The notes under the pieces were generated by a model. It worked only from the letters and a program-made list of their open reading frames with translations. It searched no databases and had not been told where the DNA came from. A stretch of DNA of 64,000 nucleotides, taken from the NCBI RefSeq assembly GCF_001553035.1, contig NZ_KQ959957.1:1-64000 (forward strand), in the 5' to 3' direction. Source of the DNA: Gemella haemolysans. GTDB taxonomy: Bacteria > Bacillota > Bacilli > Staphylococcales > Gemellaceae. The position numbers and the translations under genes were made by a program. Shown here one piece after another: positions 35,116 through 42,187 of the stretch; the stretch's first letter is position 1; each line of letters begins with the position of its first letter.

Positions 35116-37818
35116 ATGGAGAAAAAACAATATTATTCTATAAGAAAGCATAAAAAAGGTGCGGTGTCAGTATTACTTTTCACAGCTTTATTTGCAGTTG
35201 TGGGTGCTGGTAGTGAAGTTAGTGCTGCTGATAGTAATACTTCAGCTGCAGATATAAGCGGTGGAGCAACAAATCCACATGTCAGTCACAAGGAAAAAGA
35301 AGATGAACAGCCATTAATAAGTGATAAAACAAAAAAAATAGTAACAGATAAAGCTTATAATGAGTCAGGAAAATTATTAAAAAACTTATGGAATGAGAAT
35401 AAGGATAAGGTTAAGGATGATGATAAGAAAAATCTATTGGCTAGAAAAGTAGGTGGTTCTGCTTTAAAAGCAGGGGCTGGAGCAGCGATAACTGTAGCTA
35501 CTGAGGCAGTAAAGGAGAAAATAATATCTGATTCAGATTCTAGTTCAGAAAAGTTTGTAAAAGGTGTTGCAGTAGACCTTGAAAGAGATATGGCTATAAA
35601 GGCGATTACTGAAGGAAAAAAAATTAATAAGGATATGGTTATAGCTAATGTCATTAATAATAGTTCTAAGGTATTAAAGGATGAAGTCTGGAAGCATTTT
35701 GATAAAATAGGTAATGTTGAGGGAAGAAAAATATTTTTGACTGAAAAAGAGATAAATAATATTCCTAAGTATAAAAAACAATTCGAAGGATTAGATATTT
35801 TAAGGAATGGAATAAATTCAGGTTTAGAAATAGGAAAAGGATTAGGAGCACTTAATCCAGTTACTGCAAGTGCACAGAAAGCTTATGCTGATATTAATGT
35901 ATCTTTAGGAAAAACTGCGATTACAGCTATTGATCGCGGATTTGACTACATGTTTGATATGGTTAATAAATCAAGAATTGAAGCTCAAAATAATAATAGG
36001 GATTTAATAATTGATGATCAAGAAAAATCTAAGTTAGAAATAGAAAATGAAAAAGTATTTTCTAAGAAACCAATAAAAGCTTGGGAGCATGGCTCTAAGG
36101 AAGGTCTAGTTTTTGAAATTGAAAAAGAACTGGGTGATTTTAAAGAAGCTCAAGTTAATGGAGTTCCATTAGATTCATCTAATTATAATCTAAGTAAGGG
36201 AAGTACAATTGTAAATCTTAAACCAGAATACCTTGATAAATTACATGAAGGTAGATATACTTTGGGTGCAATCTTTAAGAAAAATGGTGGAGATGACTAT
36301 GTAACTACTACTTTTGATATCAAGAGAAAAGGTGATACTAATAAAATATCTGAAAAAGATGGAATATATATAGTACAAGATTTAAAAGATTTAACAGAAA
36401 ACAACAAAACTGATATTACAGATACAGAAGTTAAAAATGAAGTGAGTCTAGTTATTGATACTTCTTTAAGTATGATTAATGTCTTAGATCAAGTAAAAGA
36501 GATGGCTAAGAAAACTGTAGAGAGTATACTGAAAAATTCAAATACAAAGATTAATCTTGTTGGTTTTTCAGGTGGTGCGGGTCTTGTTGTAGAATCGACT
36601 AATGATAAACAAAAGTTATTTGAGGGTATTGATAGCTTAATTCCATTTATTGGTACTAATTTCTATTCTGCGTTAGAAGTGGCTAATGAGAGTTTTATAA
36701 CTAATGCACCAAATAAATCAATAATATTCATGACAGATGGAATTCCAGGTGCTGGTAAACAAGAAGATGATGACAACTTATTTAATGAGAAAGAACATGG
36801 AGAATCAGCACGATATGCTAATGCAGCAGTACATTTGAAAGAAAGCTTTAAAGGTAAGTACGATATATATCCAATTGGTTTCATAAATTTTGGAGAAGAA
36901 TATAAAAAAGAAAAAGAATTCGTCAAGCGTCTTCTAGAGAAGTTAGCGACTAAAAAAGTATATATGTCAGATAATATAGATGAATTAAATAAAGTGTTTG
37001 AGAATGTATCGAAAGATGTGATTAAAAAATTTGATTTCGAATTAGGACATAAATTAATTGCTAAAACTCCAGAAAAATTAGTATATAAACTTACTGAAAC
37101 AGTACTTAATCCTAATGAAAGTGATTTAACAAAAATTCAGACAGAGTTAAAATTATTGAATCAAGGTAAGGTTATTGCTCCAACTTCAGTTCAAACAATA
37201 GATGTAATATCTAAACAAGGTAGAGCTGTATTTGAGTGGTTAATTGAACTTAACAGAAAAGACTTTAAAGAAACTGATAAACTTAATTTTGAAGTTATTA
37301 CTAGTACTTCTGAGAAATTAAAAGCAGCTAAGAAAGCATATTTTAATATAGATAATAAAGTCACTAAGTATGAAGTAGACAGAAGTAAGATAGAAGAAAT
37401 TATTAAAGATGAGATTGAAAAAGGCAAAGTTAACGTTAGGGAAATTTTATTAAAAGAATTAGAGAATGTAGTAAAATCTGAACCTACTGAAAGTAAAAAA
37501 GGTGAGTCATTAATTCAACCAGAAAATCCAAAATATGAGATTCCAACTGATAAGAATATTGAAGAACATAAAGTGGGTACAATAGCTAAAGAAAATACAC
37601 ATAAAGAGAATCTGCCACCTAAAGAAAATACAGTAACTTTTAAATCTAATGAAAAAGAAAATGTGAAAGCACCTGTATTATTAGATTCAAAAGAAAATAA
37701 AGTTATTGCAAAAGAAACTAAAACATTACCTAATACAGGTACACCATCACAGTCTACTACAATAATCGGATTAATTAGTGCAGCAGTTGCATTAAGATTA
37801 AGAAAAAAAGCTGAATAA
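35116..37818 (+). CDS. YSIRK-signal, LPXTG-anchored surface protein with a von Willebrand factor A domain
   Basis: A 900-residue cell-wall protein. The YSIRK motif (7-11) and a signal peptide ending near residue 39 direct septal secretion. The LPNTG sorting signal (871-875), hydrophobic tail and RLRKKAE end direct sortase anchoring. A VWA domain begins near 443 and has the metal-ion-dependent adhesion motif DTSLS at 448-452. Residues 45-330 are charged and helical and match no family I recognise; residues 790-865 are a Lys/Glu/Pro-rich wall spanner. It is probably an adhesin binding a host or matrix ligand. Monocistronic with its own promoter and terminator. Confidence 0.88.
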   Translation: MEKKQYYSIRKHKKGAVSVLLFTALFAVVGAGSEVSAADSNTSAADISGGATNPHVSHKEKEDEQPLISDKTKKIVTDKAYNESGKLLKNLWNENKDKVKDDDKKNLLARKVGGSALKAGAGAAITVATEAVKEKIISDSDSSSEKFVKGVAVDLERDMAIKAITEGKKINKDMVIANVINNSSKVLKDEVWKHFDKIGNVEGRKIFLTEKEINNIPKYKKQFEGLDILRNGINSGLEIGKGLGALNPVTASAQKAYADINVSLGKTAITAIDRGFDYMFDMVNKSRIEAQNNNRDLIIDDQEKSKLEIENEKVFSKKPIKAWEHGSKEGLVFEIEKELGDFKEAQVNGVPLDSSNYNLSKGSTIVNLKPEYLDKLHEGRYTLGAIFKKNGGDDYVTTTFDIKRKGDTNKISEKDGIYIVQDLKDLTENNKTDITDTEVKNEVSLVIDTSLSMINVLDQVKEMAKKTVESILKNSNTKINLVGFSGGAGLVVESTNDKQKLFEGIDSLIPFIGTNFYSALEVANESFITNAPNKSIIFMTDGIPGAGKQEDDDNLFNEKEHGESARYANAAVHLKESFKGKYDIYPIGFINFGEEYKKEKEFVKRLLEKLATKKVYMSDNIDELNKVFENVSKDVIKKFDFELGHKLIAKTPEKLVYKLTETVLNPNESDLTKIQTELKLLNQGKVIAPTSVQTIDVISKQGRAVFEWLIELNRKDFKETDKLNFEVITSTSEKLKAAKKAYFNIDNKVTKYEVDRSKIEEIIKDEIEKGKVNVREILLKELENVVKSEPTESKKGESLIQPENPKYEIPTDKNIEEHKVGTIAKENTHKENLPPKENTVTFKSNEKENVKAPVLLDSKENKVIAKETKTLPNTGTPSQSTTIIGLISAAVALRLRKKAE

Positions 37819-37823
37819 TACGT

Positions 37824-37857
37824 AAAAAGAGAACTCGGCGTAGTTCTCTTTTTATAT
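37824..37857. terminator. Bidirectional terminator
   Basis: AAAAAGAGAACT (37824-37835) pairs with 37842-37853. It is shared by the surface protein gene and the convergent lid-domain gene, whose stop codon it overlaps. Confidence 0.82.
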
Positions 37858-38133
37858 ATCTATTATTTCAAATCTAGTTTGCTCACCGTAATATATAAGC
37901 AGTGAAGCTAGTATTGATTTCAATTGTTCTAAATTATCTGTTTTTAAGTTAATTTCTGCCTTACCAGAGATTACATTAAAAGCAGCACCGCTTTTTACAG
38001 AGATTATCTCTATATTTTTATATTTTGCAGTTTTTCTAACAAATTCACCAGTGATAACTGTTGTATCTATGGCTTCATGAGGTTCAGCTCCGTGTCCACC
38101 TTTACCAAAAATATTAACTAAATATGTATGCAT
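37852..38133 (-). CDS. Stand-alone M20 peptidase lid/dimerisation domain protein
   Basis: A 93-residue protein whose whole length matches the lid domain normally inserted inside M20 amidohydrolases. The first strand and loop FGKGGHGAEPHEAID has His14 in the GGHGA motif. Then come a helix (TVITGEFVRKT), strands IEIISVKSGAAFNVISGKAE and INLKT, and a second helix (LEQLKSILASLLIYYG). It has no catalytic domain. The ATG lies 2 bp after the stop of the upstream M20 gene and 12 nt after AAGGAGG, so it is in position to be well translated. It is either a remnant of a lost paralogue or a functional partner of the neighbour, which lacks this motif. Confidence 0.65.
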   Translation of the reverse strand: MHTYLVNIFGKGGHGAEPHEAIDTTVITGEFVRKTAKYKNIEIISVKSGAAFNVISGKAEINLKTDNLEQLKSILASLLIYYGEQTRFEIIDI

Positions 38134-38135
38134 AT

Positions 38136-39293
38136 CTATTGTTCCTCCTTAAGATTTTTTATTACATTAGCGGAATCAAATGCTAGTGTTAGGAATATTG
38201 AAGCTGTTTGTTTCATAACTTCTTCTTCAAAATCAAAATTTGGATGATGGTGTGGATACTTAGCGAATGTAGAATTACCGGCACCAATTAGGAAAAAAGC
38301 ACCAGGTACTTCTTCAACGTAATAAGCAAAATCTTCACCGATCATTAACGGTTCAATTTCCACTTGTTTAATTTCAGGAAGAATCTTAGAAGTTGCTTTT
38401 TGTATTTCTACTGTTCCTTTATTATGATTAATAAGAGGTGGATAGCCACCGTAATATATAAACTCTATATTAGTTTCAGAATACTCATTTTCTAGAGCTT
38501 TGCATAGGTTTTGAAGTTTAGCCAGTACCATTTTATGAAGTTCTTTATTGAAATGTCTAATAGTTCCAGTGATACTTGCTTCTTTAACAGAACTTTCAAG
38601 TTTTCCCAAAGTGATAACTAGTGTTTCTCTTGGCTTAGAAAATCGTGAAACTATTTGTTGAGTCATACTAACAAATTCAGCAGCAATAATATTTGCATTT
38701 TCCTTAGTGTTGATTATTACTTCGAATCTATCGGCAGCCGCACACAGCTCACTATAACTATATCCTAATGTTCCGAGTGGAAGTGGTGTCCAAAGATGAG
38801 CTCCAAATATTGCATCAACACCTTGTAAGCAACCAGCATCTATCATAGGTTTTGCTCCACCTGGAGCTTGTTCTTCACCGTATTGGAAAACTGCAACAAC
38901 ATCGTGTGGAAGATTTTCTTGATGATCCATTAGAACCTTACACGTTGCAAGTAATGCTGTAGTGTGTCCATCATGTCCACAAGCATGCATTGCATTAGGA
39001 ATAGTAGATTTGTAAGGAGTATCCTTTGCATCATTAATAGGTAGAGCGTCAAAGTCTGCTCGAAAAGCGATTGTTTTTGAAGAATCTTGTCCTTTAATTC
39101 TTGCAACTACACCATTTAACCCGACGTTTGTTTTAATATCAGTAATACCAATTTTTTCTAAATATTCTTTAATGAATCTCGCTGTATTTATTTCATTAAA
39201 TGAAACTTCAGGATGCATATGCATATATCGACGAAGTTCAATCATTTCTGGATAAAATTTTTCAAGTTCATTTTGTATAATTTGTTCAATCAT
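38136..39293 (-). CDS. M20D family amidohydrolase/metallopeptidase with an altered lid
   Basis: A 385-residue zinc hydrolase of the M20D group (N-acyl amino acid or peptide amidohydrolases). Metal-binding and catalytic residues are present: Cys105 and His107 in HACGHDGH, Glu140-Glu141 in YGEEQAPGG, His166 in GAHLW, GEDFAYY, and the C-terminal HHHPNF. The lid starts normally (AAADRFEVII, from residue 185), but the usual GKGGHGAxPHxxID loop is replaced by NTKENAN (195-201). In this family the lid His normally reaches into the partner subunit's active site. The missing motif is encoded by the next gene. A -10 TATAAT lies on the minus strand at 39331-39336. Confidence 0.85.
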   Translation of the reverse strand: MIEQIIQNELEKFYPEMIELRRYMHMHPEVSFNEINTARFIKEYLEKIGITDIKTNVGLNGVVARIKGQDSSKTIAFRADFDALPINDAKDTPYKSTIPNAMHACGHDGHTTALLATCKVLMDHQENLPHDVVAVFQYGEEQAPGGAKPMIDAGCLQGVDAIFGAHLWTPLPLGTLGYSYSELCAAADRFEVIINTKENANIIAAEFVSMTQQIVSRFSKPRETLVITLGKLESSVKEASITGTIRHFNKELHKMVLAKLQNLCKALENEYSETNIEFIYYGGYPPLINHNKGTVEIQKATSKILPEIKQVEIEPLMIGEDFAYYVEEVPGAFFLIGAGNSTFAKYPHHHPNFDFEEEVMKQTASIFLTLAFDSANVIKNLKEEQ

Positions 39294-41143: not shown

Positions 41144-42187
41144 ATGAGAATATTTAATTATGAAAATTTAGAAAGTAATAAGTGGGATAGTGAGATCATA
41201 AATCTTCTTTCACAAATTCATGAACATAGGGGAAAACAAGAACTTTTTTTGACACGTAAACCTGCTGTTTTAGATAAATTAGTAGAGATTGCTAAAATTC
41301 AAAGTGTAGAGGATTCTAATAGAATAGAAGGAATTGTTACTACAGCAGTTAGAATAAAAGAGTTGGTGAATCAAAAAACAACTCCTAGAAATAGGGATGA
41401 GGAAGAAATTCTTGGGTATAGAGATGTATTAAATATAATTCATGAAAGTTATGAGTATATTCCAATTAACAGTAATTATATTTTGCAACTTCATAGACAT
41501 TTATATAAGTATAGTGAAAAAGGAATCGGTGGTCGATACAAAAACACACAAAATTCTATTATAGAAAAAGATATAAATGGTAATGTTATTGAAAAGTTTA
41601 AGCCTTTATCCCCATATGAAACTCCAGGTGCAATTGAGCAAATCTGCGATGAATTGAACAGGGCTTTTGATAAGAATGAAGTAAATTCATTACTTTTAAT
41701 TCCAATTTTTATCCATGATTTTCTTTGTATTCATCCTTTCAATGATGGAAATGGAAGGATGAGTCGTTTATTAACAACTCTTTTACTTTATAGACAAGGA
41801 TATGTAATTGGGAAATATATTAGTTTAGAAAGTAAGATAGAAAAAAGTAAAGACAGTTATTATGTTGCTTTAGAAAAAAGTGGGATAGGTTGGCATGAAA
41901 ACAGAGAAGATTCTGTACCATTTATAAAATATATTCTCAGAACGATATTAGCTGCGTATATTGATTTTGAAGAGAGAGTTGATTATGTAGATGAAAAGGT
42001 TCCTACAATTGAGCTTGTGAGAAATGCAGTTGATAGTAAATTAGGTAAATTTACTAAAAGCGATATGATGGAATTAGTTCCAAGTGTAGGTAAAGCTACA
42101 ATTGAAAATATGCTTAAGCAATTGACTGAGGAAGGATACATTGAAAGACATGGTAGAGGAAGAGCAACTTTCTATGTGAAGAAGTAA
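41144..42187 (+). CDS. Fic family protein with N-terminal inhibitory motif
   Basis: Fic proteins transfer AMP or another nucleotide moiety to target proteins. The 347 residues contain the complete active motif HPFNDGNGR at 197-205, with catalytic His197. The N-terminal helix has the class II inhibitory motif SNRIEG (58-63; Ser58, Glu62, Gly63), whose Glu blocks ATP binding until relieved. A Fic-N region precedes it, and a C-terminal winged-helix-like segment (about 280-347) could bind DNA, perhaps the boxes in its own promoter. No antitoxin gene is adjacent. It is likely a self-controlled AMPylating regulator; the target is unknown. Confidence 0.9.
   Translation: MRIFNYENLESNKWDSEIINLLSQIHEHRGKQELFLTRKPAVLDKLVEIAKIQSVEDSNRIEGIVTTAVRIKELVNQKTTPRNRDEEEILGYRDVLNIIHESYEYIPINSNYILQLHRHLYKYSEKGIGGRYKNTQNSIIEKDINGNVIEKFKPLSPYETPGAIEQICDELNRAFDKNEVNSLLLIPIFIHDFLCIHPFNDGNGRMSRLLTTLLLYRQGYVIGKYISLESKIEKSKDSYYVALEKSGIGWHENREDSVPFIKYILRTILAAYIDFEERVDYVDEKVPTIELVRNAVDSKLGKFTKSDMMELVPSVGKATIENMLKQLTEEGYIERHGRGRATFYVKK

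Follow-up and report, generated by a model that had tools for sequence, protein, structure and literature searches.

We propose that two adjacent genes of Gemella haemolysans encode the unlike subunits of a single M20 amidohydrolase, an obligate heterodimer with one active site that was formerly a homodimer. We place the probability of this reading at about 0.85; binding, a 1:1 stoichiometry, and activity are inferred, with neither biochemical data nor a model of the complex in hand. Both genes are on the reverse strand of the window, which is the whole 64,000-nucleotide stretch of DNA that was analyzed (contig NZ_KQ959957.1, positions 1–64,000). The large-subunit gene (38136–39293) encodes a 385-amino-acid M20D amidohydrolase whose metal-binding catalytic domain is intact and whose lid fold lacks the trans-acting loops, and the small-subunit gene (37852–38133) encodes a 93-amino-acid stand-alone M20 lid. 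An earlier reading made without database searches (hereafter, the sequence-only reading) had suggested that the lid is supplied in trans. This suggestion is supported, with physical binding and activity remaining inferences: the short gene is intact beside the altered enzyme in nine of nine genomes, and to this we add a reciprocal loss of lid residues.

The gene pair and its conservation

The small gene is located 2 bp downstream of the large gene and in a different reading frame. Its ribosome binding site (AAGGAGG; 38144–38150, reverse strand) is contained in the 3'-terminal part of the large gene, and an AGGAGG, GGGGG, or AGGAG sequence is present at the corresponding place upstream of the small gene in all nine Gemella genomes. 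The two-gene unit ends with a terminator-like hairpin (37824–37853, reverse strand), which consists of a perfect 12-bp inverted repeat and a run of T; other Gemella genomes have differing hairpin-like sequences 3' of the small gene, as judged by eye. Across the genus, the two genes are either separated by 1–2 bp or overlap slightly, and no separate control is visible. On re-examination, the coordinates, the 385-residue open reading frame (ORF), the NTKENAN segment at residues 195–201, the 2-bp gap, and the AAGGAGG site given in the sequence-only reading were all borne out, as was the presence of FGKGGHGAEPHEAID at the start of the 93-residue ORF.

The pair is adjacent in all nine Gemella genomes examined. 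Among 157 genomes of the order, the stand-alone small gene was found in the nine Gemella genomes but not in the remaining 148; further lid matches listed in these genomes are located inside frames of approximately 390 codons. Both genes are absent from six genomes of a sister genus within the family, where ordinary M20 proteins or fragments are all that was found. The named matches in a scan of genome contigs are from Gemella haemolysans, G. sanguinis, G. cuniculi, and G. bergeri.

In all nine Gemella species, the small gene has 93 codons, with no stops and no indels. Its product has 30 residues that are invariant in the nine species (including G10–P18, D23, S48–G49, F52–N53, and I55–S56), so that the motifs GKGGHGAEP...ID and FN.IS are unchanged throughout. 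Pairwise dN/dS estimates (Nei–Gojobori method) for the small gene are approximately 0.12–0.26 for close species pairs and mostly 0.13–0.35 for distant pairs, which are partly saturated; those for the large gene are about 0.04–0.18. The small ORF is thus well beyond what chance would produce, with 93 codons retained in nine species under purifying selection. These are two of the checks that the sequence-only reading had put forward: a short gene frameshifted or absent beside the altered enzyme was encountered in none of the nine genomes, and the dN/dS values of close pairs indicate purifying selection. In one genome, a run of A near the start of the large gene (G002:C6; L010, 343 onwards) differs by one base (A6 vs. 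A7) and shifts the first codons; the large gene is otherwise intact, as is the small gene, and the difference may be a sequencing error.

The flanking genes on both sides of the pair vary between Gemella species, and the pair remains together. In seven of the eight other Gemella genomes, the next gene after the pair is uracil-DNA-glycosylase-like. Only in the genome studied here is the pair directly followed by a gene whose LPXTG-anchored product has a YSIRK signal and a region resembling von Willebrand A (35116–37818 of the window). Elsewhere in the window (41144–42187), a gene for a Fic-motif protein (HPFNDGNGRMSRLL) is situated between an ABC-F gene and pyrR; no such protein was observed in the vicinity of the pair in the eight other Gemella genomes.

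The proposed large subunit

The large protein meets the cut-offs of both the M20D amidohydrolase model TIGR01891 (258.1 bits; cut-off of 153.75) and PF01546 (E-value of 9.9e-40; 137.1 bits; cut-off of 24.6). Its metal-site residues H103, C105, E140, E141, H166, and H349 (in the HxCGHD, EE, H, and HH motifs) are invariant in 39 sequences, in agreement with the earlier claim that the enzyme keeps its metal ligands. All 32 ordinary M20D enzymes have the lid histidine of the GxGGHG motif, which is missing from all eight large proteins, the neighboring small gene carrying one instead. The large protein therefore does not meet the M20D criterion of a lid histidine on the same chain.

In an AlphaFold2 model of the large chain (mean pLDDT of 93.6), residues 188–281 (38451–38732, reverse strand) retain the fold of an M20 lid, with secondary structure elements in the usual order (beta 188–196, alpha 200–218, beta 225–234, beta 238–247, alpha 250–270, and beta 274–281). 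The model matches the solved structures 4EWT, 1XMB, 1YSJ, and 6SLF with Z-scores of 40.6–47.8. Because of this predicted fold and these structural matches, we regard the lid of the large chain as present but lacking its trans-acting loops. The sequence-only reading was right that the histidine loop is gone from the enzyme, but the lid domain itself is kept in the model, and the alignment reveals a loss wider than had been noticed, in that the (A)FNVI loop is missing as well. In comparison with ordinary M20D enzymes, the lost loops map to residues 195–201 (NTKENAN in place of GxGGHGAxPHxxID; 38691–38711, reverse strand) and to residues 233–240 (the site of G-(A)FNVIP; 38574–38597, reverse strand). 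The cis lid arginine R246 of the GTIRHF segment (codon at 38556–38558, reverse strand) is kept, and is invariant in 39 of 39 full-length sequences. Judging from the model, the lid of the large chain could in principle still form a dimer surface.

The proposed small subunit

The small protein passes only the threshold of PF07687, the M20 dimerization (lid) domain (24.8 bits; cut-off of 21). Members of this family are expected to interrupt an M20 catalytic domain of their own chain, a criterion that the free-standing 93-residue ORF does not meet in any of the nine species, and neither the ORF nor its AlphaFold2 model contains a catalytic domain. The model (pLDDT of 95.5) has the same order of secondary structure elements as the lid of the large chain and covers entire M20 lids (6SLF with a Z-score of 13.9 and an rmsd of 1.5 over 93 residues; 4EWT with a Z-score of 13.1). 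Both the PF07687 match and the full lid fold of the model agree with the earlier description of the downstream gene as encoding a complete lid and nothing else. The GKGGHGAEPHEAID loop (38065–38106, reverse strand), in which G10–P18, I22, and D23 are invariant in the nine species, carries the putative trans histidine H14, and the AFNVI segment carries the putative trans asparagine N53 (codon at 37975–37977, reverse strand), also invariant in the nine species.

Reciprocal loss of lid residues

Among the widespread M20 enzymes, arguments about what the lid residues do across the dimer have drawn on mutants and on hinge motions. In CPG2, Arg288 of one monomer's lid contacts His229 and Asn275 of the lid of the other monomer (PMC6271292). 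In DapE, the oxyanion hole is formed by His194 of the opposite chain (PMC10815964), and the enzyme without its dimerization domains is inactive, with its metal site intact (PMC4012986). A point against the proposed heterodimer comes from PepD, an M20 relative in which mutation of the lid histidine had little effect; in PepD, however, the three residues are on the same monomer (PMC6271292).

In structural alignments, the aligned ranges that begin at residue 1 of the small model start at residue 216 of CPG2, 181 of DapE, and 249 of beta-alanine synthase. Provided that the first 14 residues are aligned without gaps, H14 corresponds to residues 229, 194, and 262, respectively, of which CPG2 229 and DapE 194 are the published trans histidines. 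The asparagine and the arginine are 13 residues apart in ordinary M20D enzymes, as they are in CPG2 (275 to 288); the equivalence of R246 with CPG2 Arg288 rests on this spacing and not on a residue-level structural alignment. From the H14 mapping and the Asn-to-Arg spacing, we therefore assign the trans residues to the small protein and the cis residue to the large one.

In an alignment that combined lids from eight large proteins, nine small proteins, and 32 ordinary M20D enzymes, we defined as conserved those lid positions that are at least 85 per cent conserved in the ordinary enzymes (n = 16). Of the 16 positions, ten are retained solely in the small protein and the other six solely in the large one; no position is kept by both, and none is missing from both. 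The ten comprise the GxGGHG..PH...D loop together with the Asn and Ile of the (A)FNVI loop; the six consist of the lid-entrance D, four residues (Q, R, P, and V) near the end of helix 1, and the arginine of the GT(I/V)R motif. The small protein has accordingly lost cis features of the lid, namely the arginine and, where helix 1 ends, the Q/R/P segment. The 16 positions fall in about five blocks and do not represent 16 independent events, and the lid-entrance D falls at the extreme edge of the small protein. As far as can be read from the alignment, the partition parallels the published chemistry, with the trans His and Asn held by the small protein and the cis Arg by the large one, and it is because the residues are divided along the lines of known M20 chemistry that we give the partition weight.

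The proposed heterodimer and its alternatives

In the proposed enzyme, the large chain would contribute the di-metal catalytic domain, and its lid would provide the cis arginine and a dimer surface. The small chain, being a lid only, would pair lid-to-lid with the large chain, and its H14 and N53 would reach the active site of the large chain, taking the role of the partner subunit in M20 homodimers. A homodimer with two active sites would thus have become a heterodimer with one: after loss of the second catalytic domain, the trans loops of the large chain and the cis features of the small chain would have been left without a target and been lost, each lid retaining only the face still in use. 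That this happened within a single genus, with a shared-site homodimer turned into an obligate heterodimer, one subunit reduced to a trans-donating domain, and each lid shedding residues that no longer had a target, we consider very probable, the order of evolutionary events being inferred, as is the dependence of activity on the small chain. Judged by subfamily, the substrate would be an N-acyl amino acid or a small peptide; it has not been established.

The homology of the small gene is confined to the central quarter of an M20 enzyme, and its immediate neighbor is another M20 gene, as would be expected of a functionless leftover of a deleted tandem paralog. Such a leftover would not be expected to keep 93 codons free of stops and indels in nine species with a dN/dS of about 0.2, nor a ribosome binding site in nine of nine genomes, an invariant catalytic motif, a complete predicted fold, and a hairpin after the gene. 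We reject the dead-fragment reading on the basis of conservation and dN/dS, and regard it as scarcely credible. Nearly as implausible is that the lid pairs with a different M20 enzyme in the cell, or with a second copy of itself, rather than the neighboring large chain. The genome does encode further M20_dimer proteins, but the M20 paralog that was examined (L002) retains its own lid histidine (GRAAHV), whereas the adjacent large enzyme is missing exactly what the small protein has, and the large and small genes are never apart in nine genomes.

Unlikely, though less easily set aside, is that the small lid is a regulator, which switches the large enzyme on or off through its level or its binding, rather than a constant subunit. 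Separate translation permits unequal amounts of the two proteins, and enzyme-activating dead paralogs are known in trypanosomatids (PMC5201418, PMC3663545). The tight two-gene unit, in which the gap is 1–2 bp or replaced by a short overlap and separate control is not visible, speaks against regulation of this kind, as do the metal-site residues of the large chain, all of which are intact.

Comparison with known systems

The M20D homodimers 4EWT, YxeP (1YSJ), Arabidopsis IAA-amino acid hydrolase (1XMB), and CsAga (6SLF) share with the Gemella large chain the catalytic domain, the metal-site residues, the lid fold, and the cis arginine, but have all lid residues on one self-pairing chain, whereas in Gemella the trans loops are encoded by a second gene. 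In CPG2, DapE, and beta-alanine synthase, His and Asn come from one lid and Arg from the other, which is the mechanism proposed for the Gemella pair; unlike that pair, these enzymes are homodimers with two active sites and no separate lid gene.

The dipeptidases PepV and Sapep have one active site, as proposed for the Gemella pair. The PepV lid is a double lid that resembles the lid pair of CPG2, and PepV would be the fused counterpart of the Gemella split. In these dipeptidases, Asn, His, and Arg are all in the lid region of a monomer (PMC6271292). They are single chains of a different subfamily, whereas the Gemella lid halves are encoded by two genes that are out of frame with each other.

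Among other enzymes, the nearest idea is that of the trypanosomatid prozymes of AdoMetDC and deoxyhypusine synthase, in which a homologous noncatalytic partner, comparable to the small lid, is required for activity (PMC5201418, PMC3663545). Prozymes are catalytically dead paralogs, whereas the Gemella partner is trimmed to one donating domain and does not meet the prozyme criterion.

Distribution and origin

No stand-alone lids were found outside Gemella at the thresholds used in the 157 genomes of the order, samples of 399 genomes of the class and 398 genomes of the phylum, and the scan of genome contigs; an independent, more diverged lid split elsewhere is not excluded. In a PF07687 sample of 41 genomes, the approximately 150 best matches listed are in full-length frames, except for two short ones. 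One short frame is from a gene broken by masked bases. The other, an apparent free lid (L182; G537:C1:1306500–1312000), is a fragment of a decayed AbgB-like (aminobenzoyl-glutamate-utilization-like) M20 pseudogene and has no catalytic partner. The eleven best class-level matches fetched from outside the genus all keep the histidine loop. In the open-access papers, to which the literature search was limited, we found neither a stand-alone M20 lid nor a heterodimeric M20 enzyme.

In a full-length phylogeny, the large proteins are located on a long stem (1.09) beside an M20D clade of the same order (94/83). The lid phylogeny, reconstructed from 55 columns, has too few positions to tell whether the large gene or a different M20 gene gave rise to the small lid.

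With the proposed division of the lid's cis and trans duties between two genes, each can be mutated, titrated, or swapped independently. The pair would be a clean natural example of a homodimer that became a heterodimer through complementary loss, in which the reciprocal deletions are still readable. Annotators would also have an explanation for a small protein of opportunistic oral bacteria that has lacked one.
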